Below, one piece after another: positions 12,144 through 28,683 of a stretch of 35,641 bases of DNA. The stretch is from Candidatus Bathyarchaeota archaeon B26-2. GTDB taxonomy: Archaea > Thermoproteota > Bathyarchaeia > Bathyarchaeales > B26-1. The stretch lies in the NCBI GenBank assembly GCA_001593935.1, contig LUCE01000023.1:1-35641 (forward strand). The letters run 5' to 3'. The notes under the pieces were generated by a model that saw nothing but the letters and a program-made list of their open reading frames with translations, ran no database searches and was not told where the DNA came from. How positions within the stretch are numbered: position 1 is the first letter of the stretch; every line of letters starts with the position of its first letter. The translations under genes and the position numbers were made by a program.

Positions 12144-12178
12144 TCTTTATAAGAGTAAAAATAGAGGGTGAAGGGCTC

Positions 12179-12637
12179 CTAAGGCAATGTCAGCATCACT
12201 GGATAATCTTTGCCCGCGGCGCTGTGGAACTTTAGGTCCAAGGTTGTTCCTGACGTGAAGAGGGTTCCGTTAATGGAGATCGTGAACGCTTGTGATTGAC
12301 CTATCGGGATTGATGCCGGAAGGCTTGGGCTGATCGTCATGTTAGCACCGTAGTCATCTAAAGGCCTACCGTTAACTAGCACGTATTGTATAGTTGCATC
12401 GGCTGACCCCGAGTTCTTCAACTCAATAGTCACAGTGAAGTTTCCATTAGATTCTTTTACCGCGTAAGACTTGACTATCTCTATCTTCTCGAACCTCGTG
12501 TAGAGTCCTGCGATCCCACCCATCCAGTATGAGACTGCCACGGCGACGACGATCGTCACTGCAACCAGAACTACTGTAGCGATCACTGGACTCAGAGCCC
12601 TTTTATTTCTAACGATTCTGCTAGTCACCTTTTTCAC
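12179..12637 (-). CDS. Major archaeal type IV pilin (locus A)
   Basis: 152 residues. The N-terminus (RNKRALSPVIATVVLVAVTI) is the archaeal pilin signature: basic residues, the A|LSPV processing site and a long hydrophobic helix extending to SYWMGGIAGLY. The rest is a beta-rich head with sequons. Start is GTG 12637. This is the first gene of locus A. A TATA-like box (AAATATAG on the minus strand) lies near 12695-12710, and the T-run after its stop could end part of the transcripts so that pilin is made in excess (inference). Substrate of the prepilin peptidase encoded divergently at 12822. Confidence 0.92.
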   Translation of the reverse strand: MKKVTSRIVRNKRALSPVIATVVLVAVTIVVAVAVSYWMGGIAGLYTRFEKIEIVKSYAVKESNGNFTVTIELKNSGSADATIQYVLVNGRPLDDYGANMTISPSLPASIPIGQSQAFTISINGTLFTSGTTLDLKFHSAAGKDYPVMLTLP

Positions 12638-12821: not shown

Positions 12822-13610
12822 ATGCACGAATGGCTCGAGGCAGCGCGGGTGGGCTTAAGCCTTTTCTTTCTATCGCTCTCCTCATGGTACGACCTCAAAG
12901 AGAGGGAGGTCTCTAACAAGGTCTGGCTCGTATTCGCTCCACTGGGGTTCGCCCTCTCCGTTCTTCAGTTCCACCTTACCAGAGATCAGTCCTTCATCGT
13001 CTCGATGGGTCTATCAACCTTAATTATCGGAGGGTTCTCCGTGGCGCTCTTCTATCTCGGGCTATTTGGTGGAGCCGACGCTAAGGCCTTGATCTGCCTC
13101 TCTCTGACGCTACCTGTTCAACCGTCATCCTTTAGGCCTCTACTGAATGTGACTTCGCCGTTCTTCACCTTCTCCGTACTGATCAACGCCGTCTTATTCT
13201 CGTCCGTCTCGATCTTCGGAATGGCCCTCTACAACCTCTATAGGCGTTTCGGAGCTGGAGAAGAGCTCTTTGAGGGGCTTGAAAGCGAGCCCTTGTTGAA
13301 CAAAATTCTAGCGTTCTTTACGGGCCTCAGAGTCGACGTGAATAAACTTAACAACTCGCCTTATTATATTCCTCTAGAAACAGTCTCGATGAGAGAAGAC
13401 GGGACGCAGACCCGTCGGCTGAAGATATTCTTCCGGTTAAGCGAGGACTCGGAGATTGAGAACCTCGATGACGTCAGGGGGCTCGAGGGAAAGATATGGG
13501 TGACGCCCAGCCTTCCCTTCATAGTGTTTATCACTGCAGGCTTCGTCGCAGCCCTCTTCCTCGGAGACGTCCTAATGTGGTTGGTGGCTCTGCTGGTTAA
13601 CTTTATATAG
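12822..13610 (+). CDS. Archaeal prepilin peptidase (A24 aspartic peptidase)
   Basis: 262 residues, polytopic. The two catalytic Asp contexts of the A24/PibD-FlaK family are present: WYDLKEREVSNKVW (Asp24) and FGGADAKAL (Asp86). It cleaves the short leader from prepilins at the membrane. Beyond the first six or so hydrophobic helices is a soluble insertion of about 80 residues (160-235), then two final membrane helices. ATG 12822 has GGTGG six bases upstream. It lies between the two pilus loci and is the only prepilin peptidase seen, so it probably processes the pilins of both. Confidence 0.88.
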   Translation: MHEWLEAARVGLSLFFLSLSSWYDLKEREVSNKVWLVFAPLGFALSVLQFHLTRDQSFIVSMGLSTLIIGGFSVALFYLGLFGGADAKALICLSLTLPVQPSSFRPLLNVTSPFFTFSVLINAVLFSSVSIFGMALYNLYRRFGAGEELFEGLESEPLLNKILAFFTGLRVDVNKLNNSPYYIPLETVSMREDGTQTRRLKIFFRLSEDSEIENLDDVRGLEGKIWVTPSLPFIVFITAGFVAALFLGDVLMWLVALLVNFI

Positions 13611-13677
13611 ATCAGGAGAGACATAACGGCGCTTGTAGGCTATTATGGAGTTGTTCTATATGTCTGAAAACTATTTA

Positions 13678-13704
13678 GTATGTATAGAAAAGCTACACAC
13701 AAAT
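13678..13704 (+). promoter_or_regulatory. Shared dyad operator, site 1 (upstream of 13769 gene)
   Basis: GTATGTA (13678-13684), eight bases, then CTACACACAAAT (13693-13704). The arms GTATGTA and TACACAC form an imperfect dyad. A TATA-like CTTTTTAATG begins right after it at 13705, and the start at 13769 is about 55 bases further. Identical spacing is seen at 17887-17913 and 18619-18645. A site directly next to the TATA box suggests a regulator that helps or blocks TBP/TFB (inference). Confidence 0.75.
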
Positions 13705-13768
13705 CTTTTTAATGCTTATCTGAGACTTCTTGAAACGTGACTTAACAAAATAACTCGTGGGATGTTCC

Positions 13769-14368
13769 ATGTCAGATAAAATGGAGGAGATGGAGTCTAC
13801 AGAGGAAGAACTTTTCAGTTATCCATTCTTTCTTCAAGATGAAGAAGCAAACAGCGAGAAAGTTAAGGAGATAGAAGAGAAATTCTTCAATTTGCTCAAG
13901 GTAATAAACGAGGATACCAGACAATTAAGCGAATTTCTGGTAGAGGAAGAGAACCTAGTAAAGGAGATATGTGCCTGCTTGAAGGACATCTTCTATCGGT
14001 TGGATTTATCAGTCACTCTACCGACGAAACACTTCTCAAATCTCAAAGAGTATAAGGAGATCATCCTGAACTCTCAAGGACACCTTATATTTCTGGATAA
14101 GGAAGGCGCCGTCGAGTCGAAGAGTTTGGAGAGTTATCCGCCAGAGATCATCCTAACAGTGGTCTGGGGAGTCATACCGAAACTTAGAGAAACCGTCAAC
14201 GACTACATGAGGAAGGTCAACTTCAGACTTAACTTCTTCGAGAAGATAAACGAGGAGTTCAAGAGCATCCAAAAGTCCTTAGAGGCCTCCAAAGAGGGCG
14301 CCATAAAAAGTTCGTATGACGACTTTCAGCAGAAGAGCATCAGAGAAGTCATACTATCGAAAAAATAG
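13769..14368 (+). CDS. Unrecognised acidic helical protein
   Basis: 199 residues, mostly helical and charged, with no membrane segment or signal. The N-terminus is strongly acidic (MSDKMEEMESTEEELFSYPF), followed by helices with Glu/Lys periodicity (KVKEIEEKFFNLLKVINEDT) and a short hydrophobic stretch (EIILTVVWGVIPKLRETVND). I do not recognise the family. ATG 13769 is chosen; GTG 13757 in the same frame would add four residues. The start lies behind dyad site 1, and the next gene (14425) follows in 56 bases, so the two are probably one operon. Position beside the AAA+/vWA genes and the shared dyad suggest a role with them. Confidence 0.75.
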   Translation: MSDKMEEMESTEEELFSYPFFLQDEEANSEKVKEIEEKFFNLLKVINEDTRQLSEFLVEEENLVKEICACLKDIFYRLDLSVTLPTKHFSNLKEYKEIILNSQGHLIFLDKEGAVESKSLESYPPEIILTVVWGVIPKLRETVNDYMRKVNFRLNFFEKINEEFKSIQKSLEASKEGAIKSSYDDFQQKSIREVILSKK

Positions 14369-14424
14369 AGCCTAAAGGAGAACGTGAAGGACGCGGGATA
14401 AGTGTAACCGCTGAGCTGTAAAAG

Positions 14425-15030
14425 ATGACCAAGGTCTTCCCGTTGGAGATCAAAGACTTTTACTCCCTAAAAGAGCTGAACTCCTTCATCGACAAGGAGA
14501 TCAGTTGGTACGAGTTCGTCCTAAAAGAGTACAACCAACATTTAGGGTCTCTCTTAAGAGAACAGGGAGAAGGCCAAAACGAAGAGGAACTACTCAAAAA
14601 ACTTCGGGAGAAAGGTTTCACTTCTCAAGAGAAGAAGCGGAAGAAGAAGGGCAAAGGCAAGAAAACAGAGGAGGCCGAGTCGAGAAACTGGTTCACATTT
14701 AGAAGTATAATGTTCTCAGCCAGCAAGGAGAGCAGAGCAGAGATCTACTTCGAGGCCGTGGAGAAGATCAAGAGCAATCTTGAACGCTTGAAGGAGGTCA
14801 AAGCTTTGATCGAAGAGCTTATGAAGGCCGGGTTAGGCTCAGACCTGATCTACTCATCGTATCTCGTCGACGGAATTCCCCAAAAGATAGTCATTCAACA
14901 GCGGAGAGAATCTGAAGGAATTAAATACAGGTTCGAGATCGATCTCTCCACAAGCGTGGATGCCACTAGGCCATCCGCCGAGTCGCCTGAGGAAACCGCC
15001 CTAAGCGAGGAGGCGATCGCTACATCATAG
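14425..15030 (+). CDS. Unrecognised coiled-coil protein with Lys-rich loop
   Basis: 201 residues. An N-terminal helical region (EIKDFYSLKELNSFIDKEIS), a very basic low-complexity loop around 72-85 (KKRKKKGKGKKTEE), a second helical region (YFEAVEKIKSNLERLKEVKA), then a beta-like segment (DGIPQKIVIQQRRESEGIKY) and an acidic Ser/Glu/Ala tail. No known family is recognised. It is the second gene behind dyad site 1, and its last 11 bases overlap the end of the convergent vWA gene. A cytoplasmic partner of the vWA/AAA+ pair is possible but unproven. Confidence 0.72.
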   Translation: MTKVFPLEIKDFYSLKELNSFIDKEISWYEFVLKEYNQHLGSLLREQGEGQNEEELLKKLREKGFTSQEKKRKKKGKGKKTEEAESRNWFTFRSIMFSASKESRAEIYFEAVEKIKSNLERLKEVKALIEELMKAGLGSDLIYSSYLVDGIPQKIVIQQRRESEGIKYRFEIDLSTSVDATRPSAESPEETALSEEAIATS

Positions 15031-16747
15031 AGGTGTACTGGAAGAACGTCTTTACAAAACTTTTCATGAGCTCGTAAGGGTTTCTAACTATACAAGAGAC
15101 CGGAAAATAATTCTTTACTCCCTCACTGTTAATTCCAATACCAATTATGTGCATACCCGATCTTATGACGGTCTTAACGCGGTTCTTCAACTCCTCATCT
15201 ATATTTTTATATCCTATGGGGAAGGCGTCGGAGACCACCAACAGAATCTTCGCCTCCTCGTATCGACCCCTTAAAGAGTCTGAGGCTACTTTTATCGCGT
15301 CGGGCAGGTAAGTCATTCCGCTGTGTTCTATTCCACCTATCCTTGCACATACAGTTCTAGAATAGTTCTCCGAGAAGTCCTTTATTATATAGAATCTGTC
15401 GTTGAAGGCGAAGATGCTCCACGAATGCTTATCTAAGAAGAGCTTTCTAGCAACTTCAGCTAAGCTTAAAGCCACGTCTCTAACTTCTCCAGAGAAGGCT
15501 TTGAGGCTGGTACTCGCATCGACGAGGATTATCCAAGCTTGTTTCCTGTACCTCAGTTCATCCTCCACGAAGACGTCGCTACGTTGACTCTGGCTTGCGA
15601 TCACTTGAACGGCCTCCTGAAGGTCTAAGTATCCGCTCTCCCTCCTGAAGTCTTCACCTGCAACGTTATAGTACACGCTGAGCCTGTTCAAGATTCGGCG
15701 GATACCCTTGGAGAGAGCCTCTTTCCGAAGAATATATTTGGCATAATCCTCCTCCGGAAAGGCGAAAGACTTGAAGTGTGTACCGCTACCCAACTCCCTA
15801 TACTTCGCAAGTATCTTCTCTTCAGACCTCTTCTTTCTATCCCAATCCCAGATAGCTTGGGTTGCCTCTCTCCTAGTCGACTCCATGTTAAGGTCGATCT
15901 TGAGCCTCAGTCTGGATTTCATTCTCTCGATAGTCTTCTCTAGCTCTTCCTCATCGGGCAAAGTTTTATAGAAGAGGGAGTTTCTACTCAGATGGTTCAT
16001 GTACAGAAACGAAGGAATCTCCGTTATCGGGCCGTGATTCGAGATCGCCTCATATACCGCGGATGCTGTTCTCAACTTTTCCGGCTCATTCATAATTGGG
16101 GATAAATCCGTGTCTCCCTTCTCCTTTTTTCCCAAGTAGGATTTAATCAACTTCTTTTCTAATTTTCTAACCGTTGAAACAGTGGCTTTCACATCTTTCA
16201 CCATTTCTTCCGGGAGATTTCCTTTGATCATGGATGTCTTGTAATAGGTTAGTACCGAAGACGCGAAACGAACTCCATTGTTTCTCAAGACATCGACGGG
16301 TTTCATTAGTAGGTAGGAGATGGCGTCGGCGATCTTTATCTCTGGTAAGAAGGGCTGGTAGAACGCCTTGACGTAAGCGTTTATCGCCGCGTCCTCGATG
16401 AGGTTTATCACGTATAACGCCCTCTCTTCGTCTTTACCTTTAACCCAGTCTGGATACAACTCGATGTTCGAGGCTGCAACATAGAAACTCAAATAATAGA
16501 CTGACGCCTTGAAGAGGGTCCAGAGGATGTGAACGTCGTTTGCACTGGCCAGATCGAAGAGCATCCCTTGGTAAGTCACAAACTTATCCTTCACCTTCCT
16601 CATCTTGGGTAGAAAGATTATGAATCCGTCATCATCTTTTCCGAGGAATGGAAACTGAACCTCATCTCGGATAAGTATCTTCACTTCACCGGGTTTCTTC
16701 TTGGTGATCTCGTAGGATGTAAACCAAGCGAACTCGTAAGGGTTCAA
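15020..16747 (-). CDS. CbbO/NorD-like protein with C-terminal vWA domain
   Basis: 575 residues with no signal peptide. The first 400 residues are mainly helical and charged. The C-terminal vWA domain starts at about residue 402 with AWIILVDASTSLKAF; MIDAS residues are DASTS (410-414), Thr in SGMTYLPDA (about 479) and Asp in LLVVSDAFPIGY (about 507). It follows the AAA+ gene by 25 bases. Pairs of a CbbQ/MoxR AAA+ ATPase with a CbbO/NorD-type vWA protein act as chaperones that remodel or insert cofactors into target enzymes; here the likely clients are pilus proteins, by position only. TTG 16747 has GGTGG seven to eight bases upstream. Confidence 0.83.
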   Translation of the reverse strand: MNPYEFAWFTSYEITKKKPGEVKILIRDEVQFPFLGKDDDGFIIFLPKMRKVKDKFVTYQGMLFDLASANDVHILWTLFKASVYYLSFYVAASNIELYPDWVKGKDEERALYVINLIEDAAINAYVKAFYQPFLPEIKIADAISYLLMKPVDVLRNNGVRFASSVLTYYKTSMIKGNLPEEMVKDVKATVSTVRKLEKKLIKSYLGKKEKGDTDLSPIMNEPEKLRTASAVYEAISNHGPITEIPSFLYMNHLSRNSLFYKTLPDEEELEKTIERMKSRLRLKIDLNMESTRREATQAIWDWDRKKRSEEKILAKYRELGSGTHFKSFAFPEEDYAKYILRKEALSKGIRRILNRLSVYYNVAGEDFRRESGYLDLQEAVQVIASQSQRSDVFVEDELRYRKQAWIILVDASTSLKAFSGEVRDVALSLAEVARKLFLDKHSWSIFAFNDRFYIIKDFSENYSRTVCARIGGIEHSGMTYLPDAIKVASDSLRGRYEEAKILLVVSDAFPIGYKNIDEELKNRVKTVIRSGMHIIGIGINSEGVKNYFPVSCIVRNPYELMKSFVKTFFQYTSMM

Positions 16748-16772
16748 AAGTTAGCCACCGTTGAGCGTCTTC

Positions 16773-17846
16773 CTACGTGAAGTAGCTCTTGATTATCCTT
16801 CTAACTATGTCTTGTATCTCAACATCGTCGCTTGTAGTTCCAATTATACTTTCTTCAGCCGCCTCTAAGGGTGTGCTTCCATCGGCTATCAGGACAGCCC
16901 AGTTTATCAAGTCTCCCGGCGAGGGGCCGTACGGAAGATCTCCAGCCTTATACTGCCTTCGTAGCTCCGCGCCTGCGCGAACAATTCTTGTGGCGGTATC
17001 CTCATCTACTCCACTCCGCTTCTGGACGAGCTTTATCTCATCCGGAGATATCTGGTTTCCTACGCTGAGGTAATCAAAGTTTATCCAGACCGACATCCTA
17101 CGTCTGAAGGCTGCGTTTAGAGGCTTAGTTCCAACGAACTCGCTTGAGAATGGGTTCATGGAGATTATGACGTATCCGTATCGGTGTCTATTAACAACTT
17201 CGTTGTCCTTCTCCGTGAGAACTATATGGCCTCTCGTGTCGAGGATCGGGTTTAGACGTGCCGCGATGTCCTGCTTCATCATGTTCGCCTCGTCGAGGTA
17301 GAGGATTCCCCCAGTTCTGCACCAGAGGATTATCTGCCCGTCGATCCAGTTTTCCTTACCGAGGCCGATGTACCTCCCGCAGAGGTCGTAGGTTGACGTC
17401 TGCAACCCGCAGTTGATCTCCCATATCGGCAACCCCGTAAGCTCAGCGATGAAGTAGACGATGTGAGTCTTTCCCGTTCCGCTCGGCCCAATAAGGGCGC
17501 ACTGCTTAAAGTAGTACAGCGCCCTAACGATCTGTTTCACGTAGTTCTTTCCGGGAGGCGTTATGTACTCCGGCACGTTCGAGGGGATCATATCCCTTAC
17601 AGAGTCTGGAAACCTATAATTGGGGTGTAAGTTATACTTCGCTATGCCATACTTCTCCAAGAGCTCCGGCCTAGAAAGCGACTTCTTTATCACTAAATTC
17701 AGCCTCGTCCTCTTGAGTCTGGTGTTGATCCGGGTTTCCACGTACTCGGGAATCTCAGCAACACTCTTCAGACCTTGGCTTCCGTACCCTAACGAGGCTT
17801 TCTCCTCTTGCTGACTAGCTGTAGAACTGTTCATCGATGGAAGCAC
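16773..17846 (-). CDS. CbbQ/NirQ/MoxR-type AAA+ ATPase
   Basis: 357 residues. Walker A GPSGTGKT (120-127), Walker B ILYLDEAN (181-188), sensor 1 IISMNPF and an Arg-finger region AAFRRRM (245-251). The stretch DLCGRY...WIDGQIILWCRTGG is close to the CbbQ/NorQ pattern (DLxGRY...WxDGPL...AxRxGG). Such ATPases work with a vWA protein, encoded here just downstream (15020-16747). The start may be GTG 17846 or ATG 17834; a GGAGG lies too near the GTG and rather far from the ATG. A TATA box (TATTAAAAAA, minus strand, 17874-17883) and dyad site 2 sit directly upstream. Confidence 0.9.
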   Translation of the reverse strand: MLPSMNSSTASQQEEKASLGYGSQGLKSVAEIPEYVETRINTRLKRTRLNLVIKKSLSRPELLEKYGIAKYNLHPNYRFPDSVRDMIPSNVPEYITPPGKNYVKQIVRALYYFKQCALIGPSGTGKTHIVYFIAELTGLPIWEINCGLQTSTYDLCGRYIGLGKENWIDGQIILWCRTGGILYLDEANMMKQDIAARLNPILDTRGHIVLTEKDNEVVNRHRYGYVIISMNPFSSEFVGTKPLNAAFRRRMSVWINFDYLSVGNQISPDEIKLVQKRSGVDEDTATRIVRAGAELRRQYKAGDLPYGPSPGDLINWAVLIADGSTPLEAAEESIIGTTSDDVEIQDIVRRIIKSYFT

Positions 17847-17886
17847 ACCCTCCTTTTATCTTCTCGGTTCTTGTTTTTTAATAGTA

Positions 17887-17913
17887 GTATGTAGCTTGGA
17901 CCTACGCACAAAA
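17887..17913. promoter_or_regulatory. Shared dyad operator, site 2 (AAA+ operon / SecB-like gene)
   Basis: GTATGTA (17887-17893), eight bases, then CTACGCACAAAA (17902-17913). Read on the minus strand, the dyad stops three bases before the TATA box TATTAAAAAA (17883-17874) of the AAA+/vWA operon. The divergent SecB-like gene starts 88 bases away on the plus strand, where I see no convincing TATA box, so control of that gene is less clear. Confidence 0.72.
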
Positions 17914-18000
17914 GGAAAATTGGCGATAACAAAACTTGTTTGGTTAGCGCGCGTTAGAAGTTTGCTTGAGAGATGAAACGACCCGGATAGGAGAAACTAC

Positions 18001-18441
18001 GTGACGATGACGGTACCGGAAGATGCGATAGAGGTTAAACTCTTAAACGTGGCAGGCACTCGGCTGACTGGAGAGAATCCTACAGGCGCGCAGCCCGAAT
18101 TTGATGTGAATGTAAAGTTAGAGGAGATCGAACGGAGAACCGGGGAGGCAGCCTTCGACTTTAAGTTAACGGTAAACACCAAACCGAGCGTTGTAAGGTT
18201 TGATGTGAATGGCATAGTGAACGTAAATAGCGGAGGCGATGATATAGAGAGAATCCTTCAGCCAGACCCCGAGACTAAAGTTCCCCCCATACTACACAGA
18301 ATCTACCAACAGGTCTTTCTGTCGATCTTCCTCCTAGCCGGGATCATAAACGCTCCTCATCCCCCTCCAGACCTAATATTCTCCTCTGTTAAGAGCGAGG
18401 TAGTTCAACCCTCCGAGAAGGAAGAACAATCCGAATCGTAG
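18001..18441 (+). CDS. SecB-like protein (paralogue of 1758-2198)
   Basis: 146 residues. Beta strands (IEVKLLNVAGTRLTG; PEFDVNVKLEEIERR; FDFKLTVNTKPSVVRFDVNG) are followed by PPILHRIYQQVFLSIFLLAG and APHPPPDL, then an acidic tail. The plan matches the SecB-like fold and the protein at 1758-2198. GTG 18001 is chosen because AGGAG lies seven bases upstream; ATG 18007 is possible. It is divergent from the AAA+/vWA operon and lies before the locus B pilin. A chaperone that keeps prepilins or other exported proteins unfolded is a reasonable guess, not shown. Confidence 0.68.
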   Translation: MTMTVPEDAIEVKLLNVAGTRLTGENPTGAQPEFDVNVKLEEIERRTGEAAFDFKLTVNTKPSVVRFDVNGIVNVNSGGDDIERILQPDPETKVPPILHRIYQQVFLSIFLLAGIINAPHPPPDLIFSSVKSEVVQPSEKEEQSES

Positions 18442-18618: not shown

Positions 18619-18645
18619 GTATGTATCTGTAATCTACGCACAAAT
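18619..18645 (+). promoter_or_regulatory. Shared dyad operator, site 3 (pilin B promoter)
   Basis: GTATGTA (18619-18625), eight bases, then CTACGCACAAAT (18634-18645). A TATA-like TAATATTTTAAG follows at 18648-18659, and the pilin ATG is at 18690, so the leader would be about ten bases. Same spacing and orientation relative to the TATA box as site 1. Confidence 0.75.
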
Positions 18646-18689: not shown

Positions 18690-19253
18690 ATGAGACTGCT
18701 AAGAAATAAGAAGGCGCTCAGCAACGTGACTTCCACACTGATCCTTCTAGTGGTTTCAGTGTTGCTGGCAGGAGTCGTAACATTGTACGCAACGAACGTC
18801 ACCATGACTAGAACCCAGCAGGAAGAGCTGAAGATAACGAAGCAACACATTTGGGTATACGAGAACGGTACTACTTTCGCAGGTTTCGTGATAGATAACG
18901 TCGGCGGAAAAGACATCGTGATAGACAAGATACAGGTCAGAGGTGTTGAGGCAAGCTGGACGAGTGTCTACTACTATAGGTCTTCAAGCTCGGTTACTGC
19001 CGACCTTGTCTGCCCCAACTCGAGTGGACACAGCTGGACTAACTTCCAATACGACGGAACCAACGTGGCAACCTTCACTCAAGGCACGGCTAACCAAGAC
19101 ATAACGTTGGCTTCAGGAGGCACCCTTGTGGTCTACATAACCAGCCCCGACAACATCAGCTCGAATGACATAGGAACGTCTGTCGGTATAACTGTCTTCA
19201 CCATGAACGGTCAATGGTACGTTGAATGCAACGTTGAGACAGCTGAAAGCTAG
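18690..19253 (+). CDS. Archaeal type IV pilin (locus B)
   Basis: 187 residues. The start MRLLRNKKALSNVTSTLILL has the basic leader, the KA|LS processing site and the hydrophobic helix of archaeal pilins; Asn replaces the Pro found at this point in pilin A. The head is rich in Ser, Thr and Gly, with sequons, and has a strand resembling the pilin/archaellin fold (GGKDIVIDKIQVRGVEASWT). It has its own promoter with dyad site 3 and is followed by T-runs, so it may be expressed more strongly than the rest of the locus. Likely the main filament subunit of locus B. Confidence 0.9.
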   Translation: MRLLRNKKALSNVTSTLILLVVSVLLAGVVTLYATNVTMTRTQQEELKITKQHIWVYENGTTFAGFVIDNVGGKDIVIDKIQVRGVEASWTSVYYYRSSSSVTADLVCPNSSGHSWTNFQYDGTNVATFTQGTANQDITLASGGTLVVYITSPDNISSNDIGTSVGITVFTMNGQWYVECNVETAES

Positions 19254-19351: not shown

Positions 19352-20152
19352 ATGGATGTTAAGAGAACGAACAAAGGGTTGGCTACTCCTGTCTCGCTAT
19401 CGTTTCTCCTATTCTCCTTCACAATCCTCACGGTAACGACGTACTACTTCGTAATGTCCTCGGTTGACACAAAAGCAAACAAAGTGAGTTTCACAGCCGC
19501 AAAGAACGCCATGCTTTCCTTAGAGAGTTCCATCAAGTCGATAGCGTGGTCACCCGGTTCCTCGGCAGTCCAACACTTCAAGGATTATTATGGGACGTTC
19601 GAGACTGAACCCGACGCAAGGAGGCTGCTTCTCAACTTAACATTCGGCTCTTCAAACTACGTAGTCTTCAACAGCAGCCTTGGACGCTTGAAGTATGAGA
19701 TGCCTCCTGCAGACGTAAACCAAGTCGGCTGGTTCCTGAGAGGAGACAAGAGGGTTATCATCAACCAGAGCTTCGCTGGGATGGCGCAGATGTACATCGA
19801 GAACGGCGAGGACAGTCAGGAACTTCGTCTCAGTTATCGTCCGTTGGCGGTCTCCTACGAAGATAGCCAGGATGGAAGCACAGTTAACATCGTTAGAATC
19901 TATCTCATCAACCTAAACTCGTCGGAGAACCTTTGGTTTAAGGGGAGCTTCCGCGTTAAGGCTCGTTGTGTAAACGTTACCGTCGAGACGAGAAACTACA
20001 ATTTCTCCGGCGAGGTCTCCTTCGTGATCGTTAGAGCCTCAGTTGATGGCGACGAAGGAACAGTCTATCTACCCCTCTCAAGCTCGGGCAACTTCACCTT
20101 AGTCAAGGTGGAGGTCTTGGTGTGTAATATACGGTTGGAGGAGGTGGACTAG
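19352..20152 (+). CDS. Pilin-like protein (locus B; relative of 7761-8558)
   Basis: 266 residues. N-terminus MDVKRTNKGLATPVSLSFLL runs into a hydrophobic helix, then a helix with SFTAAKNAMLSLESSIKSIA, and a beta-rich extracellular part with sequons. The arrangement and the AKN[AV][ML]L helix match the locus A protein at 7761. The ATG at 19352 has GTGAGAG just upstream. The TAG stop is followed in the same frame by codons that read like the missing N-terminus of the next gene (see 20195-20605). Confidence 0.78.
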   Translation: MDVKRTNKGLATPVSLSFLLFSFTILTVTTYYFVMSSVDTKANKVSFTAAKNAMLSLESSIKSIAWSPGSSAVQHFKDYYGTFETEPDARRLLLNLTFGSSNYVVFNSSLGRLKYEMPPADVNQVGWFLRGDKRVIINQSFAGMAQMYIENGEDSQELRLSYRPLAVSYEDSQDGSTVNIVRIYLINLNSSENLWFKGSFRVKARCVNVTVETRNYNFSGEVSFVIVRASVDGDEGTVYLPLSSSGNFTLVKVEVLVCNIRLEEVD

Positions 20153-20194: not shown

Positions 20195-20605
20195 ATGATG
20201 ATTGTAGGTACGATTCTAACAGCCTCGTTCGCATCCTATGTAAACCTCTTGAGGGGGACATCCGAAGTTAACCAGTTGAGGGAGGTGCTGGCTAAGGTGG
20301 CATCTAAGGCGGAGGAGGCTTTGGCCAGTGTCGTTGAACACGACGCTACTGTGAGTATCGTCATCCAGCTGCCTCCGAAGATCGGGAACCGAGACTACTG
20401 GATTCGGTTCGCTAACGACTCCTCAAAAGCCTGGATAGAAGCGGCCTTCGGGAGAACCCCGAGGAGTGGAGATCAAGAGTACCGCGTTTACTTGCCTAGA
20501 GGGGTCTCAGCCTCAGGAACCTTCGAAGGGAGATACAGCCGAGCTCTGCTTACCTGTTCCCTCAACAGTTCGGTTCCTCAACTCACCATAAGTCGGATGG
20601 AGTGA
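20195..20605 (+). CDS. Short pilin-like protein (locus B; relative of 7249-7758)
   Basis: 136 residues from ATG 20195: a hydrophobic helix (MMIVGTILTASFASYVNLLR), a charged helix (SEVNQLREVLAKVASKAEEA) and a small beta domain (QLPPKIGNRDYWIRFANDSS). The match to locus A is clear in the domain order and the LP[PE]KIG block. No ribosome site is seen before ATG 20195. Upstream in the same frame, after the TAG at 20150-20152, come TPSVSLNFFYSFLT and then MM, which would complete the hydrophobic helix as in locus A (MDSTIIPHIIGT...). The true start may therefore be affected by a mutation. It ends four bases into a GTG of the ATPase frame. Confidence 0.7.
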   Translation: MMIVGTILTASFASYVNLLRGTSEVNQLREVLAKVASKAEEALASVVEHDATVSIVIQLPPKIGNRDYWIRFANDSSKAWIEAAFGRTPRSGDQEYRVYLPRGVSASGTFEGRYSRALLTCSLNSSVPQLTISRME

Positions 20606-20607
20606 GT

Positions 20608-22188
20608 ATGTTCAGACTCAGCAAAAAAGAGAAGATAACGAAGGAAGAGGAGAACAAACCCGTAGAAGATTTGATGAACGCTTTGAAGATAGAGGGTCAG
20701 AGGCTTCCAGAGAACTACGAGGTCGTCGAGAATTACCCCTTGAAGCCCCCTTTCTCTTACGCTTTGATCCTCCGGGAGAAGGACACAAAGGAGCTCCTCT
20801 ACTTCGTCGACGAAATCTCTCTAGACCGTAGGGAGCAAGAGATCTACATGAAGCTAAAGGAGGTGCTTGAAGCCGAGCTTCAAGCTCCGGAAGATGATGA
20901 AACCCCGGTCCAGTCCTTCAGAAGGCAGTTTCCAGAGATCATCGCTAAGCATCGCGACGTATTGAAGGACATATCTCAGGTTGGGATCAAAAAGATAGAG
21001 TTCTATCTTGAACGAGACATCTTAGGCTACGGCAGGATCGACCCCTTGATGGCGGACCCCTTAATTGAAGACATCAGCTGCAGCGGCGCGAACAAACCCA
21101 TCTACCTTTGGCATAGAAAGTATGAGAACGTCAAGACCAACGTCTTCTTCGGCAGCGAGGAGGAGCTAGATGACTTCGTTATGAGGCTCGTCCACAAAGC
21201 TGGGAGACACGTGAGCATAGCATTTCCGATGGTCGACGCCACCCTTCCGGGGAAGCACCGATTGGCCATATATTACAGGAAGGAGGTTACGCCCTTGGGG
21301 ACGAGCTTCACCATCAGAAAGTTCCGAGAAGACCCGCTCACCATAATCGACCTTATACAGAACGAAACCATAAGTCTAGAGGTCGCGGCCTACCTATGGC
21401 TGCTCGTCGAGAACAAGTTCTCCTCCATGATAATAGGAGCGACAGGGGCAGGCAAGACGACGGCGCTCAACGCGATCGCAGGGTTGATTCACCCGCAACA
21501 GAAGATCATAACAATAGAAGAGGTCGCCGAGATCAACTTACCTCGAGAAAACTGGGTCTCAACGATCTCGCGCGCCGGTTTCGGGATGGAAGATAAGGGC
21601 GAAATCCCTCTCTTTGATCTTATAAAATCTGCTGTTAGGCATAGACCAGACTGGATAATCGTGGGCGAGATAAGGGGTGAAGAGGCCTACGTCCTCTTCC
21701 AGTCTCTAGCCACGGGCCACGGCGGCCTCTGCACCATGCACGCTGAGGACGCGGAGACCGCGATTAAGAGGCTGACTCAGCCACCTATGAACATACCGAG
21801 CACGATAATTCCCCTCATGAACTGCATTATATCCGTGAAGCACGTCAAAGCGCCGGCTCTCGTCGAGTTTGGGAGGAGCTTCTCCAAGAGGAAGTTCGTG
21901 AAGGTCTCTGAGATAGATAGTTCAAGGAGGATTCGGGACGTCTTCGTCTGGGACAGTTCCACCGACACCTACAAAATGGAGCTCTCGGATAGTTACCTCT
22001 TCGAGAGGATCTCTGAGAAGTGGAATCTGCCACTGGAGTACGTGTATGAAGAGTTTGAGCGTCGGAAGGACATCTTGTACTACTTGGCTGAGGTGAACAT
22101 TAGGAGCTGCCATGAAATCGACGAGTTCCTAAACAAGTTCTATAACGATCCGAAGTCGACTTATCAACACATCTTCGAGTCGAGGTGA
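20608..22188 (+). CDS. FlaI/TadA-like type IV pilus assembly ATPase (locus B)
   Basis: 526 residues from ATG 20608 (GGAG five bases upstream); GTG 20602 in frame overlaps the previous stop. Walker A GATGAGKT lies at about 277-284 and an Asp-box at IEEVAEI. Walker B WIIVGEIRGEE and the His-box GHGGLCTMHA follow. The sequence is close to the locus A ATPase over the core (for example DISC[SN]G...KPIY[LI]WHRKYE). It lacks the Lys-rich tail of locus A and ends in a short helical region (CHEIDEFLNKFYNDPK). It drives assembly with the FlaJ-like partner four bases downstream. Confidence 0.93.
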   Translation: MFRLSKKEKITKEEENKPVEDLMNALKIEGQRLPENYEVVENYPLKPPFSYALILREKDTKELLYFVDEISLDRREQEIYMKLKEVLEAELQAPEDDETPVQSFRRQFPEIIAKHRDVLKDISQVGIKKIEFYLERDILGYGRIDPLMADPLIEDISCSGANKPIYLWHRKYENVKTNVFFGSEEELDDFVMRLVHKAGRHVSIAFPMVDATLPGKHRLAIYYRKEVTPLGTSFTIRKFREDPLTIIDLIQNETISLEVAAYLWLLVENKFSSMIIGATGAGKTTALNAIAGLIHPQQKIITIEEVAEINLPRENWVSTISRAGFGMEDKGEIPLFDLIKSAVRHRPDWIIVGEIRGEEAYVLFQSLATGHGGLCTMHAEDAETAIKRLTQPPMNIPSTIIPLMNCIISVKHVKAPALVEFGRSFSKRKFVKVSEIDSSRRIRDVFVWDSSTDTYKMELSDSYLFERISEKWNLPLEYVYEEFERRKDILYYLAEVNIRSCHEIDEFLNKFYNDPKSTYQHIFESR

Positions 22189-22192
22189 GCTT

Positions 22193-23683
22193 ATGACAGT
22201 CGTCCTATCGAAGAAGAGCAATCTCCTTACGCGGGTTTCAGATACCATTTCAAATATAGTCTTCAGGGAGAGAGATAGAGAGTTACCCTTCGCGTTCATA
22301 CTGATAACATTGATGGCTTCCTGCGGAATCTCGCCCTACGAGAGCTTCAAAAGGCTGATGTCCGTTCACATCCTTCCCTTTATTCAGAAGGAGTCCCGAG
22401 AGATCGTTCGGCAAGTCGAGGTGCTGGGCAGGGACCCCTTAAAGGCTATGCTCCGGAGAGCTGAAGAGACCGAGTCGAAGATATTCAGCGATTTCCTGAA
22501 GGGGTACGTCTCTACCGTGAAGAGCGGCGGCAGTGTGACGAGCTACTTAGAGAGTAAGCTACGTTCGATAATTGAGATACAGACCGCGGCGGCGGTCCGC
22601 TCCATCGAGAAGCTCGAAACCTTGGTTGAATCTTACATGGTGATGCTGCTGATCCTGCTCTGCACATACATCCTCGCCGCCGTCATGTCTTCTACCACAG
22701 CTCTCTCCTCCACCTTGGGGGTAGGCCTAGGAAACCCAGGCCTCGTCTACTTGATCGTCTTTCTGGCCATGCCACTAACCTCTATGCTCTTCATGTTATT
22801 TGCACACATTTTACAGAAAGGTACCCTTATCTCTGTTAGGAGTATCTATTATAAGGCTCTGCCGCCAGCTATTGGAGTCACAGCCCTTCTAGCTTTAGCC
22901 TTCCTCGTACCCGAAGTATGGTCGTTCATAGATTCGTTAGGTTCACCCATCTTCACAACGATCTGTTTAACAGCGATCTCCTTACCTCCCCTCATCTCCT
23001 ACCGAAGAATGATCGGGCTGAACCTCCAAGCCGAAGAGGATATGCCGAATTTCCTCCGGGATGTAAGCGAGACGAGAAAGACTGGGATGTCCCCGGAGAA
23101 GAGTATCGTCCAAGGAGCGAGAGTTAAGAGGTCCGGCTCCTTCTCAAAGGTTCTCCAGCGGATAGTCAACCAGATCGAGTGGGGAGTCTCCTTAAGAAAG
23201 ATCTATCGAGACTTGAAGGAACGCATCAACAGTTGGCCCGTCTTGACGAACTTCTTGATCTTGATCGAGACTGTGGAGGTCGGCGGGGGTCCCTCGGACG
23301 CTCTGGAGTTATTGGCAAGTTACAGTGAGAAGATACGGGACGCCGAGAAGAATAAAAGAGATATGTTGAGGCCATACATTATTTTGCCTTTCATTTGGAG
23401 CGTCTTGATGACTCTAACCTTCACCTTTACCTTCTTCGTCATCACTCAGATACCGACTGCGTACATCTCCGAGACCTCGTTTACGATGTTGGAGCAACAG
23501 ATGAACATCCTCTCGAGCGCGATAATCTTCCACTGCTGGCTCTCAGGATTCTTCATAGGTAAGGTCACCAAGGGAACTTTCGCGGCTGGATTCGAGTATT
23601 CGGTGCTCCTCGCGGTTGTATCCCTTACATCGCTTCTACTATCACGGAACTTCATGTCAACGATCGCCGGAGTGCTGATGTAA
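22193..23683 (+). CDS. FlaJ/TadC-like pilus platform membrane protein (locus B)
   Basis: 496 residues with two T2SSF-type halves: about 30-215 (ELPFAFILITLMASCGISPY ... VKSGGSVTSYLESKLRS) and about 280-495 (NFLRDVSETRKTGMSPEKSI ... VEVGGGPSDALELLASYSEK), each followed by hydrophobic helices. It is colinear with the 601-residue protein of locus A and shares its key stretches (SGGxxP/CGISPY, RKTG[ML]SPEK, EVGGG). It starts at ATG 22193, four bases after the ATPase stop, with GAGGTGAG upstream. Membrane platform of the filament machine. Confidence 0.9.
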   Translation: MTVVLSKKSNLLTRVSDTISNIVFRERDRELPFAFILITLMASCGISPYESFKRLMSVHILPFIQKESREIVRQVEVLGRDPLKAMLRRAEETESKIFSDFLKGYVSTVKSGGSVTSYLESKLRSIIEIQTAAAVRSIEKLETLVESYMVMLLILLCTYILAAVMSSTTALSSTLGVGLGNPGLVYLIVFLAMPLTSMLFMLFAHILQKGTLISVRSIYYKALPPAIGVTALLALAFLVPEVWSFIDSLGSPIFTTICLTAISLPPLISYRRMIGLNLQAEEDMPNFLRDVSETRKTGMSPEKSIVQGARVKRSGSFSKVLQRIVNQIEWGVSLRKIYRDLKERINSWPVLTNFLILIETVEVGGGPSDALELLASYSEKIRDAEKNKRDMLRPYIILPFIWSVLMTLTFTFTFFVITQIPTAYISETSFTMLEQQMNILSSAIIFHCWLSGFFIGKVTKGTFAAGFEYSVLLAVVSLTSLLLSRNFMSTIAGVLM

Positions 23684-23684: not shown

Positions 23685-24740
23685 ATGCCCTCGGCCTCCA
23701 TGGAGACTCTGCTAGCCTGTTACATCATGACCATCCTAGTCCTCTCGTCTATGGTAGGCATATCCGTGGTCGTCCATCCCTATCTAGAAAGCCAACTATC
23801 TAGATACTCAGTAGATTCAAGCCGTAGCTTAGCGGAGTATTGGCTCCTTAACCCTGGGTCTCCTTCTAATTGGGGGTCAGCATCGAACCTAGATTTGACG
23901 GCCTTCGGGTTGGCGAAGGTCAACTATAAAACTCCCTTCGACCTCGACATCGACAAAGTGACCAGATTAAATCAAGAAAATACGTATCACGTAAGTTTCT
24001 ATGAAGTCTTTACAGCCTTAGGAACGGAGGACAGAGCCATAAAAATCAGGATTGCCCCCATATTTGATATCGATATAAACTTGACGTCGCAGAGCGTAGG
24101 GAATGACAGCACAGTCTACACTTTTGAGGTGTCTACGGAAAGGTCGAACCTCCCGGTTACAACCACTCTTCATTGCTACGTCATCTTGGGAGATTACGTC
24201 GACACCGTGACGTCTACCGTTCAGGGGGAGGGCTCTCTGGAGGTGGAGATACCTAACTCTCTGAACGGGACGGCTCTCCTAATAGCCTTTGCAAGGGCAG
24301 AGCCGAGAGTGATTTCCTTCAACGTCTACTCCTTCGGGCATAACACCTCCGAGAGCCCGAACCAGCCTGGGACCTTCATCAAGCTCAGCCCACTGAACTT
24401 CACACTCTACGCGGAACATCTCTTTCCAGAAGAGAACGTCTCCAGCGTAAAGGTCTTCACGTACAGCTATAACTTCGATTTAACGAAGAAGTCAGAGACG
24501 GGGCAAACGGAGATGTACACTATACCAAGACTTTTGGAGGCGAGCCCCATGATCCTCGTGATTACAGGGACCAACCAGTCTCGATCGTTTGCTGAATGGG
24601 TTGCTTATCCCCAGTTGCCTATAGATTTCGGTTCGAGCTTCGATGGGCAGAGGAGCGCGTCTAACTCCATCTCTTGTAACTTCGTGGTGACCATCAACTC
24701 CGCATTATATGAATGCAGAATCATTCTTGGAGATGCTTGA
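23685..24740 (+). CDS. Membrane-anchored pilus-locus protein (relative of 6442-7245)
   Basis: 351 residues. One N-terminal hydrophobic helix (LLACYIMTILVLSSMVGISV) is followed by the block YWLLNPGSPSNWG...FGLAK that identifies its locus A counterpart. The rest is a beta-rich extracellular region with many sequons and is about 85 residues longer than in locus A. The ATG is one base after the previous stop, and GGAG lies about 13 bases upstream. Likely a minor pilin or stalk component. Confidence 0.77.
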   Translation: MPSASMETLLACYIMTILVLSSMVGISVVVHPYLESQLSRYSVDSSRSLAEYWLLNPGSPSNWGSASNLDLTAFGLAKVNYKTPFDLDIDKVTRLNQENTYHVSFYEVFTALGTEDRAIKIRIAPIFDIDINLTSQSVGNDSTVYTFEVSTERSNLPVTTTLHCYVILGDYVDTVTSTVQGEGSLEVEIPNSLNGTALLIAFARAEPRVISFNVYSFGHNTSESPNQPGTFIKLSPLNFTLYAEHLFPEENVSSVKVFTYSYNFDLTKKSETGQTEMYTIPRLLEASPMILVITGTNQSRSFAEWVAYPQLPIDFGSSFDGQRSASNSISCNFVVTINSALYECRIILGDA

Positions 24741-24742
24741 GT

Positions 24743-25162
24743 ATGCTCAGAGATAGGCGAGGGCAAGTTAGGATTCTGGAGGCCTTGATGGCAACATCCA
24801 TAGTCTTCTCGGCTCTACTCGTTACGATGCCGATTAACGACCTAGAGAACGACTACGACTCAAAAAGCCTTCGGTCCATCGGTTTAAACGTTCTGGTTGA
24901 ACTTGACAGAAACGGTGAACTTGGCAGCTTAATCGCTCAGGGGGACTGGGCGGAGCTCTCTAGGCGTGTCTCGATCCTGCTTCCTCTAGGGGTCTCGTAC
25001 AACCTCACAGTCTATAACGAAGACGGTGATGAGGTTAATAGCTCCACAATCTCCGGTGGAGGTGTACTAGGAGAGAACGTTGTATCGATTCGGTATTTAG
25101 TCGTTGAGAGAACTAACTGCCGATTTTACGTCGTTAGGCTTCAGCTGGCGTGGGTAAGATGA
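24743..25162 (+). CDS. RRGQ-type minor pilin (locus B, no vWA domain)
   Basis: 139 residues from ATG 24743, two bases after the previous stop, with GGAG at a suitable distance. An earlier in-frame ATG at 24713 would overlap the upstream gene. It begins MLRDRRGQVRILEALMATSI, a basic RRGQ motif just before a hydrophobic helix, nearly the same as MFRNRRGQMRVVEAMITCLI in locus A. The following region (ELDRNGELGSLIAQGDWAEL ... LPLGVSYNLTVYNEDGDEV) matches the first 110 residues of the locus A protein. The protein ends where the locus A version enters its vWA domain. Confidence 0.82.
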   Translation: MLRDRRGQVRILEALMATSIVFSALLVTMPINDLENDYDSKSLRSIGLNVLVELDRNGELGSLIAQGDWAELSRRVSILLPLGVSYNLTVYNEDGDEVNSSTISGGGVLGENVVSIRYLVVERTNCRFYVVRLQLAWVR

Positions 25163-25921
25163 GAAGGATAAAGAAGGACCGCTCAGCTCAGGCGCTCATC
25201 CTCACGGCTCTATTGATCGCCCTGATCATACTCTCGACGAAGGTCTATGTGCTTAAAGTGAACCGTATTCCAAGTGAGGAAGACTCTTTCTCTTCAGAGA
25301 GTTTTGTGAGAAACGTCAAACTGGGCTCTCGGAACTTGGTGATAGGATGCCTCGCAAATATCTCGCAAGGGGGAGACAACCAAAATTTGGAATCTAACGT
25401 TGAGAGGTGGGTCTCCTTCGTTAGGGAACGGGTACTACTACGGGGAATGCTCCTTAAGTTTTGAACTTTACGGGACCACTCCGTACTCTTCGGGGTTATG
25501 GATTTCTTGGGGGGATGATGGGTTCGGAGTCACCAGCGCCGATGTGGAGTTCTCTCTAACCTTGACTAGCGAAGGAACTGAGACAAACGTTGTTTACTCA
25601 ACAAACGTAACGACTTCCCTCTCCATAAGTGCAGTATCGACGTGGGAAGGGGGGATTCACACAATAAACGTAACCATCCATTTATATAATGAGGGAGAAC
25701 CAGCCCTTGCGAAGAACATCACCGTCTATTATGAGACTCTGAGCGGTTGGATGGATGCGAGCCTCCTCGAGAGTTACCAACTAGAAGACTTCGGAAATGG
25801 GACATACGTGGCATCCTTTACAGTCGGCCCGCCGAGAACACTTAATAGAGGAATCATGGTCAAGTGTTACGATCAAAGAGAGATATACGTTCAGGCTAAT
25901 ACGACATGCACAGACTCTTAA
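25159..25921 (+). pseudogene. Surface protein gene of locus B, frameshifted
   Basis: The ATG at 25159 overlaps the previous stop (ATGA). The first frame reads MRRIKKDRSAQALILTALLI, a pilin-like anchor, and continues to about 25420 before stopping at 25464. The protein continues in another frame from about 25420 (GNGYYYGECSLSFELYGTTP ... stop 25921), with a beta-rich region full of sequons that ends LEDFGNGTYVASFTVGPP. Removing one G from the GGG in TTAGGGAAC (25421-25427) would join the two frames. The counterpart in locus A (3630-5384) is intact and much longer. Gene loss, an assembly error or reversible frameshifting are all possible. Confidence 0.75.
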
Positions 25922-26007
25922 AGACCTACTAATTCTCTTGGCAACCTTTTCCCTAGAAGATTATTTCTTAACCTTTTATATTATGGATCCCAGAAAACTA
26001 GTTAAAT

Positions 26008-26535
26008 ATGAGGCTCTCTAGAGTCTTTAAGTTTATGATTCCCCGTGGGATATGGTTGAAGAGGACGGTTCTCCTCTTCTCTTTCATCTTCTTCGACTAC
26101 TTTGTGACGCTTAAATTCTGTAACAGTCCTTTGGAGGAGGGGAACATCTACGCGAGAATGTTTATGCAGAGTTACGGGAAGACTGCGGGTTTAACCCTCT
26201 TCGTCTTGTTGATAAACCTCCCAATATACGTAATCTTATGTCTCGACTCTCGGTACGTAAGACTGCCTGAGAGGTTCTCAACTAAAGTAGAAGTCTTAGT
26301 CGATCTGGCCTTTGGGTGGTTCGTCGCTGGAGCACACTTCTATGGAGCGGCAAGCTGGTTCTGGATGGCTCCAAGCGTAACGAGCCAAGCGGTAGGTCTG
26401 ATAATTTATGAACTGATCGCGCTTTCGTCTTTCTATCCCTTCAGTCCACTCCACCTAACATCATCAAGGCGACGAGTTATAGGAGACTATCTTAAGCGAT
26501 ATCGCTTTTCAGAAAGACATCCGATCGCCACATAG
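26008..26535 (+). CDS. Polytopic membrane protein (DUF5658-like)
   Basis: 175 residues with about four hydrophobic helices: TVLLFSFIFFDYFVTLKFCN, GLTLFVLLINLPIYVILCLD, LVDLAFGWFVAGAHFYGAAS and VGLIIYELIALSSFYP. The first contains D-x-x-x-T followed by E-E-G-N, a pattern of small archaeal membrane proteins of the DUF5658 type, as at 32477-32767. Function unknown. A TATA-like CTTTTATATT (about 25972-25981) sits 27-36 bases before the ATG, so the transcript would be almost leaderless. Confidence 0.7.
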   Translation: MRLSRVFKFMIPRGIWLKRTVLLFSFIFFDYFVTLKFCNSPLEEGNIYARMFMQSYGKTAGLTLFVLLINLPIYVILCLDSRYVRLPERFSTKVEVLVDLAFGWFVAGAHFYGAASWFWMAPSVTSQAVGLIIYELIALSSFYPFSPLHLTSSRRRVIGDYLKRYRFSERHPIAT

Positions 26536-27660: not shown

Positions 27661-28683
27661 CTATAGGTTTAAGCGCATCTTCAATCCTTTAGTGACTTTT
27701 TCGTCTTCCGCTGAGAAGAAGCGCAATATCCTCAGAGCTTTGATTATCTCCTTCTGGTTGGTCCACATAGCTCGGAACTCCTTCTTGTTATCGATGTGAT
27801 CTTCAAGAAAGAAGAGGAGTTCTTCTTCGTCTACAAGTATGAAGCTCGGAATGTTCAAGTCTGTATACGAGAATTCCCCCTTGTTCAGCCGAATCTTCTT
27901 CACGATGAAATGACTCTTCAAAGAGTAATTGGTCAACAGCTTCACGTTGACCCTTCGGGAGCTTCTCCTGAGATCGTCCAAGACCCCGGAATGGAACATT
28001 TGGAAAAGCTTATCGTCAGTAGCCACTATGAAGACCTCTTTTTTGGCGTTTCTTATGATCTCGGACGCCTTCGCGTTTATCCGAAGCATACCTTTCAATA
28101 CCTGGAAGGACTCCTTCTCCACCTCGGAGCTCTCTGAGGGACGGGGTAAAGAGAGCCATAACTTCACGATCTCTTCTTTCGCCTTCTCGAGGAGCATCAA
28201 CCTCTGTCTCTTAATCTCGATGAGGTTGGAGAGGGCTTGGTCGATCGGGAGAGCTACGAACTTAGCCGGTTTATCGAGAACCCGGTAGATCAGCCCCATC
28301 TTTTCCAGCTTTTTCAGTATCTTGTAGGTTTCAGTTCTGTGGAGGGAGAGGGCCTCTGATACACGTTGCGCTTTCTGCCCGCCAAACCTAGCGAGATAAA
28401 GGTAAACCTTGGCTTCGTTCTTTAGAAGGCCAAATTTTGATAGCGATTCCTGCATCAGCTCTATTACCGTTAACTTCTCATGACCTAAACTTGGCTTCCA
28501 AATCCCGTTCTTCTTGTAAGAAAGGATCGGTTCTCTGCCCTCGATAGGGGGGAGTAGGGCCGTTTCACTAACCGGGTCGTCTTCGAAGTTGTCAGTCAAA
28601 CTTTTGACTCCCTTCTCCAAGTAACCACTCACTCTTTTCAGCGATCTTCGATGATGGTTCAACCGAGAATTCGACGAGAACAT
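27661..28683 (-). CDS. TrmB-type transcriptional regulator
   Basis: 340 residues. After a basic N-terminal extension of about 80 residues comes a TrmB winged helix (LSKFGLLKNEAKVYLYLARF ... RVSEALSLHRTETYKILKKL ... YRVLDKPAKFVALP), a helical linker and a C-terminal PLD-like or sensor domain (EIIRNAKKEVFIVATDDKLF ... NIPSFILVDEEELLFFLED). TrmB proteins control sugar or other metabolic genes, and here the ligand is unknown. The ATG at 28683 is the first of the frame. A shorter start at Met77 would remove the extension. Divergent from ftsZ with a 210-base gap. Confidence 0.82.
   Translation of the reverse strand: MFSSNSRLNHHRRSLKRVSGYLEKGVKSLTDNFEDDPVSETALLPPIEGREPILSYKKNGIWKPSLGHEKLTVIELMQESLSKFGLLKNEAKVYLYLARFGGQKAQRVSEALSLHRTETYKILKKLEKMGLIYRVLDKPAKFVALPIDQALSNLIEIKRQRLMLLEKAKEEIVKLWLSLPRPSESSEVEKESFQVLKGMLRINAKASEIIRNAKKEVFIVATDDKLFQMFHSGVLDDLRRSSRRVNVKLLTNYSLKSHFIVKKIRLNKGEFSYTDLNIPSFILVDEEELLFFLEDHIDNKKEFRAMWTNQKEIIKALRILRFFSAEDEKVTKGLKMRLNL

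Follow-up and report, generated by a model that had tools for sequence, protein, structure and literature searches.

The subject of this analysis is a block of five genes in the genome of Candidatus Bathyarchaeota archaeon B26-2, located in a stretch of 35,641 nucleotides (GenBank assembly GCA_001593935.1, contig LUCE01000023.1, positions 1 to 35,641), which is referred to below as the window. The block encodes two proteins, X1 and X2, a protein with a von Willebrand factor A domain (vWA), an AAA+ ATPase of the CbbQ/NorQ type (AAA) and a small protein labelled SecBl (Table 1). Type IV pilus loci flank it on both sides, an arrangement reported in a preliminary description of this DNA and confirmed by the layout of open reading frames and by domain scans. 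Judging by the sequences, the block is a conserved, co-regulated module tied to a pilus, and its AAA-vWA pair is itself of a known kind. It is fairly probable that the block represents a module that works in the cytoplasm, remodels a client at the expense of ATP and serves a single type IV pilus, pilus B, under a TrmB-family regulator.

The association was assessed over the 121 genomes of the order, where only strong matches (E ≤ 1e-25) were counted and weaker matches to p19352, the marker protein of pilus B (e.g., those in G041, G062, G081, G084 and G093), were scored as absent. The vWA protein is present in 55 genomes, 50 of which also carry the pilus-B marker, while five genomes have the vWA protein alone, five have p19352 alone and 61 have neither (Fisher's test, 2.8e-22, uncorrected for kinship). 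In genus g18 (22 genomes), both are found in seven genomes and neither in 15, with no discordant case, and in several of these genomes they lie on different contigs. The 150 genomes of Nitrososphaeria include 33 with the module-type ATPase and 30 with the pilus TadC at E < 1e-100; both occur in 29, the ATPase alone in four, TadC alone in one and neither in 116. Among the four genomes with the ATPase alone, G389 is without an intact TadC beside FlaI and the other three have TadC matches at about 1e-64. The possibility that the module is an accident of gene clustering was rejected, because the co-occurrence persists when module and pilus are distant from each other or on different contigs. By its co-occurrence with one pilus type, linked or unlinked, the module appears to be a type IV pilus accessory, as the preliminary description had supposed. 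The opposite pattern, a block common without pilus loci and placed beside an enzyme, was looked for across the order and did not occur.

The second line of evidence is an operator-like sequence. A repeat finder detected a 31-nt element in three copies, at 13674, 17883 and 18615, the core of which, GTRYGTA-N9-TACRYAC, is an inverted repeat of 23 bp (GTATGTA-N9-TACRCAC in the window sites). The exact dyad occurs three times in the whole 1.89-Mb genome, always in the window, namely at the AAA-vWA pair, at pilin B and at the X1-X2 operon, so the shared site that had been proposed for these units proved to be present. Three additional sites elsewhere in the genome have one mismatch, and the reversed pattern, used as a control, gave none. 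A longer form, TKTGTRYGTA-N9-TACRYACAMA, matches these three places only in this genome at up to two mismatches. The dyad is real and specific, since its exact copies are confined to the three window sites and the reversed control is empty. No exact operator was found in pilus locus A on the other side of the block (window 3630-12637), which ties the module to pilus B and not to pilus A.

The dyad was counted in 40 module loci of the order. With at most one mismatch, it lies upstream of X1 (24/41), AAA (14/39), SecBl (14/21), pilins (10/20) and p19352 (5/12), and seldom upstream of X2 (2/33), TrmB (3/25) or other genes (4/386); it was found upstream of none of 39 vWA, 11 FlaI and seven TadC genes, and the reversed-pattern control was zero in every gene class. 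AAA and SecBl frequently have a single common site. The genome-wide scan, which served as a blind test, detected a dyad site in 51 of the 121 genomes, with zero to two sites per genome for the reversed control. The surrounding DNA was covered for 58 of the listed sites outside the genome of B26-2 (at least 72), and for 52 of these 58 the gene that follows within 260 nt encodes X1, X2, AAA, SecBl, a pilin or p19352. Of the remaining six, one is inside an over-long pilin reading, one is about 370 nt before a SecBl fragment, one is near a contig end, and three have no explanation. In family f7, where the module stands alone, distant stretches were picked by their dyad sites, with the encoded genes not known in advance, and they turned out to carry the pilus-B operon in seven cases (L077, L081, L083, L086, L089, L091 and L093) and the SecBl gene in ten (L078-L080, L082, L084, L085, L087, L088, L090 and L092). 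The operator marks the pilus genes even when they are elsewhere in the genome.

Of 113 Bathyarchaeia sites aligned on the dyad, 62 are followed by an octamer that agrees with a TATA-like pattern in 7 of 8 positions; in 36 of these 62 it starts 4, 5 or 7 nt after the dyad, compared with 4 of 61 with shuffled tails. This clustering indicates that the operator abuts the TATA box and B recognition element (BRE) region on its upstream side. According to archaeal promoter studies, a site adjacent to this region on the upstream side suits an activator recruiting basal factors. The factor that binds the dyad may instead be a repressor that blocks them. It seems from these sites that the module and pilus B share a transcription control site. 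The candidate reader of the dyad is the TrmB-family regulator, as suggested by its adjacency and co-occurrence; it would bind next to the TATA box of every unit, on the upstream side, and would turn on pilus and module jointly, presumably by activation rather than by repression.

The gene set is conserved within the order. B26-2 is congeneric with Ca. Bathyarchaeota archaeon B26-1, which has an identical gene order and a vWA protein with 79% identity to that of the window; a search of named genome contigs gave just two loci, those of B26-1 and QDN_3, both Ca. Bathyarchaeota. In 41 stretches chosen by the vWA gene (L030-L070; L030 apparently from family f17, the other 40 from the order), several of which end at contig ends, AAA is encoded in 40, X1 in 37, X2 in 34, TrmB in 26 and SecBl in 24. 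The five genes recur jointly in related loci, and this is more than a chance neighbourhood. Pilus-B genes lie in the same stretch in about a dozen of the 41, and in family f7 the neighbours, judged by eye, are FeS-assembly-like, helicase and sugar-related genes, not pili. No enzyme is a constant neighbour in these loci; the linked conserved genes are those of the pilus, TrmB and the module.

The ATPase of the window matches AAA_5 (1.8e-19) and then CbbQ_C (8.5e-16), both above cut-off, and the solved relatives found with its profile in the PDB are midasin, CbbQ, NorQ (E 8.2e-27) and CobS. All 30 aligned members have the Walker A lysine/threonine and the Walker B Asp-Glu pair, and the protein is assigned on its sequence to the CbbQ/NorQ branch of the MoxR class. 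A gas vesicle (GvpN) reading was tried and rejected: NCBIfam GvpN matches weakly, with 36.5 bits where the cut-off is 266.8, and general domain scans of the window proteins turned up no recognisable gas vesicle protein. The vWA assignment of the partner is weak in Pfam, with CobT_C barely over its cut-off and the VWA families under theirs at the C-terminus, and firm with a family profile, which matches NorD (E 9.5e-8, C-terminal domain only) and also CobT. The residues D, S, S and D of the metal ion-dependent adhesion site (MIDAS) are present in 37 of 37 members, the threonine position being Thr in 32 and Ser in five. By its C-terminal MIDAS domain, the protein is classed as a MoxR partner of the NorD/CbbO type. 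The module thus resembles NorQ/NorD in the AAA+ domain with CbbQ_C, the NorD-like C-terminal vWA domain and the intact MIDAS and Walker motifs. However, the vWA likeness is limited to the C-terminal domain and the context is a pilus: no nitric oxide reductase gene was recognised among the window proteins scanned or near the module, where the genes that recur are those of the pilus, TrmB and the module. CbbQ/CbbO, RavA-ViaA and CobS-CobT have the same ATPase class and two-gene layout, but the module differs from them in its partner protein and gene neighbourhood.

The statement in the preliminary description that CbbQ/NorQ-vWA pairs serve metabolic enzymes and not pili is outdated. In the accessible text of Makarova, Koonin and Albers (2016; PMC4858521), a pair of a vWA protein (arCOG02900) and a GvpN-like ATPase (arCOG00441) is linked to thaumarchaeal type IV pilus loci of subclade 4A, and a regulatory role or alternative regulatory pathway is suggested for it. 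This is very probably the window pair, a vWA protein and a MoxR-class ATPase beside FlaI/TadC pilus genes. The module was also supposed to be undescribed; this does not hold for the pilus link of the pair. The present data differ from that account in adding the X1/X2/SecBl core, the common operator, the occurrence in Bathyarchaeia and the co-occurrence without linkage; the main text of PMC4858521, its supplements aside, has no mention of "operator", "TrmB", "SecB" or "CbbQ". The five-gene core, the common operator, the spread in Bathyarchaeia and the unlinked co-inheritance appear to be new, most subscription papers and all supplements having been outside the literature search.

The same paper groups the vWA protein in arCOG02900 with ArnB, a repressor of archaellum expression in Sulfolobus and likewise a vWA protein with a connection to an archaeal type IV filament. 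This grouping, together with the suggested regulatory pathway and the operator that the module has in common with the pilus, is what speaks for the pair being a regulator of pilus expression or activity in an ArnB-like signalling path that would include X1, X2 and SecBl. Such a role seems unlikely: a TrmB regulator already stands beside the module in many loci, the intact Walker and MIDAS motifs and the nearest solved relatives (NorQ/CbbQ and NorD) point to remodelling, and the recurrent neighbours, the unnamed families of which are partly annotated, include no other conserved protein recognised as a partner in signalling. ArnB differs from the module vWA protein in having the FHA protein ArnA as its partner and, according to the same paper, in never being encoded in type IV pilus loci.

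For the remodelling module, a mechanism can be proposed by analogy with NorQD, in which, according to the accessible parts of two papers (PMC9976466, PMC13036017), binding to the ring does not need MIDAS, whereas activity does, and the ring pore is entered by a finger of the vWA protein. AAA, vWA, X1, X2 and SecBl would form one module acting on pilus B, presumably in the cytoplasm. The AAA+ ring would be plugged by the vWA protein bearing a client-binding MIDAS, and ATP hydrolysis would remodel the client. The likeliest client would be a pilus component, either a part of the pilus machine facing the cytoplasm (FlaI/TadC) or a pilin before insertion, and X1, X2 and SecBl may be adaptors or holdases. 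The role of the module may lie in assembly or quality control.

As the preliminary description had stated, X1 and X2 are unrecognised proteins: neither has a Pfam family above cut-off or a convincing PDB profile match. Their structural models are based on alignments of three sequences each and have middling confidence. X1 was predicted as helix - three strands - helix (pLDDT, the predicted local distance difference test score, 74.1; pTM, the predicted template modelling score, 0.47) and X2 as strand-helices-linker-hairpin-helix-hairpin (pLDDT 66.5, pTM 0.57). No Foldseek match was obtained for either model at E ≤ 0.001, and the other hits are ordinary helical arrangements; with such models, no new fold is shown. 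The three-sequence X2 model aligned with prefoldin (3aei; Z 7.5, root-mean-square deviation 5.3, 82 aligned positions), tied with unrelated helical structures, and the X1 model, also from three sequences, gave no clear match.

X2 is distantly related (hhalign 97%) to a 141-aa protein encoded beside other pilins, a further hint that X2 is a pilus-related protein. The homolog is encoded with proteins of 251-289 aa and 116-139 aa (L119:572-2798, L121:320-2461, L118:33-1768); a pilin adjoins in L119 and L121, and the 116-139-aa companion has a weak roadblock match, below cut-off, in L119. It is found in many genomes of the order, including ones without the vWA module, and weak X2 matches in the order-wide search were for this reason not counted as module. 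The use of X2 as a general module marker was dropped, as the search also picks up this distant family. In many of the more distant loci, a paralog of X1 (X1', about 175 aa; e.g., L031:7129-7662) is encoded divergently from AAA, with the longer X1 located elsewhere, and the intergenic region between the paralog and AAA often holds a dyad.

Alternatively, the pair could act with X1, X2 and SecBl to construct or place a separate structure, such as a scaffold in the cytoplasm, that works alongside the pilus and not on it. Such a structure would be compatible with the long-helix architecture of X1 and X2, for which no relatives are known, with their location away from the pilus genes in family f7 and with the existence of an X1 paralog. 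But the vWA protein without the pilus marker is met only in five incomplete or decayed cases among 121 genomes, which makes this explanation very improbable.

The label SecBl comes from the preliminary description, which had called the product of 18001-18441 SecB-like. At the sequence level, this identity was rejected. No Pfam family matched the window protein at E ≤ 1, and 20 members gave one chance match; the family profile had no match in the PDB, and two hhalign comparisons with eight bacterial SecB proteins gave E-values of 0.25 and 0.22, with a probability below 1%.

Across 250 genomes of the class, the vWA protein was found in 79; those that do not belong to the order are seven genomes of families f17 and f20, and in most of them the module and pilus B are adjacent. 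Of 300 genomes drawn from the phylum, 37 gave a match, including 14 f29 genomes and a single f61 genome. Archaeal AmoA (PF12942) was detected in 15 of 20 genomes tested; these 15 are the f61 genome and the complete set of 14 from f29, which are therefore ammonia oxidisers. All 11 of the ammonia-oxidiser stretches (L157-L167) encode AAA, vWA, SecBl, X1, X2 and TrmB, and nine add FlaI and pilins; L175 carries the complete set including FlaI and pilins, and in L168 and L169, from other families, there is only the vWA protein or relatives of vWA and AAA. With up to two mismatches, the dyad in L157-L167 precedes AAA (8/11), X1 (6/11), SecBl (5/11), pilins (6/15) and FlaI (3/9), compared with 9/74 for other genes, the control being zero except for one among other genes. 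Large proteins with PA14 and prealbumin-like domains and a weak Big_1 match are encoded inside the module-pilus locus of L157 (4530-5978 and 14401-16830), and in several ammonia-oxidiser loci a large gene of this type has a dyad about 49 nt upstream. Such proteins are possible adhesins of the same regulon.

A second CbbQ-class ATPase, shorter (about 265-275 aa) and scoring lower against CbbQ_C, is also widespread in family f29, even in genomes that lack the pilus TadC. In the Nitrosopumilaceae-type genomes of L172 (7177-9534) and L174 (6656-9013), it precedes a 520-aa protein; a vWA domain was detected in that protein in L172, the only locus scanned for it, where the pair lies between genes of a geranylgeranyl-reductase-like and a pyridoxal phosphate (PLP) enzyme. 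The four f61 genomes matched have the longer ATPase only. Perhaps the shorter ATPase with its 520-aa partner is what other authors call NorQ/NorD. In the accessible text of genome papers on ammonia-oxidising archaea, NorQ/NorD are placed under nitrogen metabolism (PMC4084955, PMC6790972), and another paper (PMC4814877) reports NorD/NorQ as missing in a strain that has pili genes, which would be a misfit if all authors had meant the module pair.

These annotations, and the fact that the characterised close relatives act on enzymes (PMC9976466 and PMC13036017, in their accessible parts), are consistent with a module that matures a metalloenzyme or other enzyme, like NorQD, CbbQO and CoxDE, and is merely co-regulated with pili in a surface-life or stress response. 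We consider this quite unlikely. There is no enzyme among the constant neighbours, and the Nitrosopumilaceae-type genomes without the pilus TadC keep the other, shorter NorQ-like ATPase, accompanied in the stretch scanned by a vWA protein of its own; pilus content thus divides the two pairs.

It is proposed that the Nitrososphaeraceae pair listed as NorQ/NorD be re-assigned to pili and not to nitrogen metabolism. More tentatively, the module could be an unrecognised MoxR/vWA machine acting on a secretion-type filament, with an ATP-powered ring that remodels the FlaI/TadC motor or a pilin, helpers X1, X2 and SecBl so far met only in these archaea and one operator shared with the pilus, a machine that would predate the split of Bathyarchaeia and ammonia oxidisers.

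Several observations weigh against a dedicated pilus-B module under one operator. Kinship inflates all p-values. The pilus marker is missing from five genomes with the vWA protein, namely G031 and four whose completeness is 81-86%. AAA has no operator in most f7 loci; there it is found at SecBl, X1 and the pilus. The seven f17/f20 loci have no recognisable operator at up to one mismatch, and at up to two it lies upstream of 6 of 60 named genes, which counts against its universality. A dyad site without vWA and without the pilus marker occurs in eight of the 121 genomes, and the TrmB gene of the window has no dyad upstream. In G031 (L171:2783-5322), the pilus-B operon ends in a truncated FlaI beside a CheA-like gene and the pilins are gone; by its gene content, this appears to be pilus decay with the module retained. 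Among the five genomes with the pilus only, G006, G035 and G059 keep X2, and G035 also has a truncated AAA.

Table 1. Features of the module, its operator sites and pilus B in the window
Feature	Position	Strand	Remark
Prepilin peptidase (A24)	12822..13610	+	PF06847, E 1.7e-16; without own operator
Operator dyad upstream of X1-X2 operon	13678..13700	.	exact GTRYGTA-N9-TACRYAC match
X1, 203 aa	13757..14368	+	alternative ATG start at 13769
X2, 201 aa	14425..15030	+	helical, Lys-rich linker, strand pairs
vWA protein, 575 aa	15020..16747	-	C-terminal vWA, full MIDAS DxSxS-T/S-D
AAA, CbbQ/NorQ-type (MoxR class) AAA+ ATPase, 357 aa	16773..17846	-	intact Walker A and B
Operator dyad common to divergent AAA-vWA and SecBl	17887..17909	.	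exact match
SecBl, small protein	18001..18441	+	SecB membership unsupported
Operator dyad upstream of pilin B / pilus operon B	18619..18641	.	exact; longer pattern also with 0 mismatches
Pilin B	18690..19253	+	Pilin_N-like, 22.1 bits, under the 25.2 cut-off
p19352, pilus-B protein	19352..20152	+	co-occurrence marker
DUF7266 protein of pilus-B operon	20195..20605	+	
Pilus-B assembly ATPase, FlaI/ArlI-like	20602..22188	+	
Pilus-B membrane platform, TadC/UpsF-like	22193..23683	+	
Remaining pilus-B gene run, unnamed proteins	23685..26535	+	
TrmB-family transcription regulator	27661..28683	-	PF01978, E 3.4e-16; candidate dyad reader

The last gene of the pilus-B run (26008-26535) travels with X1 in several relatives. 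Pilus locus A comprises FlaI-like and TadC-like genes, pilin A and a protein with a strong vWA domain (5381-6451), and at its other edge a KaiC-like ATPase and a winged-helix protein are encoded (550-2788). An FtsZ/tubulin-family gene (28894-29955) is divergent to the TrmB regulator.

If the proposed function is correct, the client range of MoxR/vWA systems, so far enzyme maturation, would widen to filament machines, and archaeal pili would gain an ATP-driven accessory besides their own assembly ATPase. The three unnamed protein families and the operator that marks the regulon make scattered pilus parts findable. The Nitrososphaeraceae pair listed as NorQ/NorD would then belong to pili, which is a testable correction of a recurrent nitrogen-metabolism annotation.

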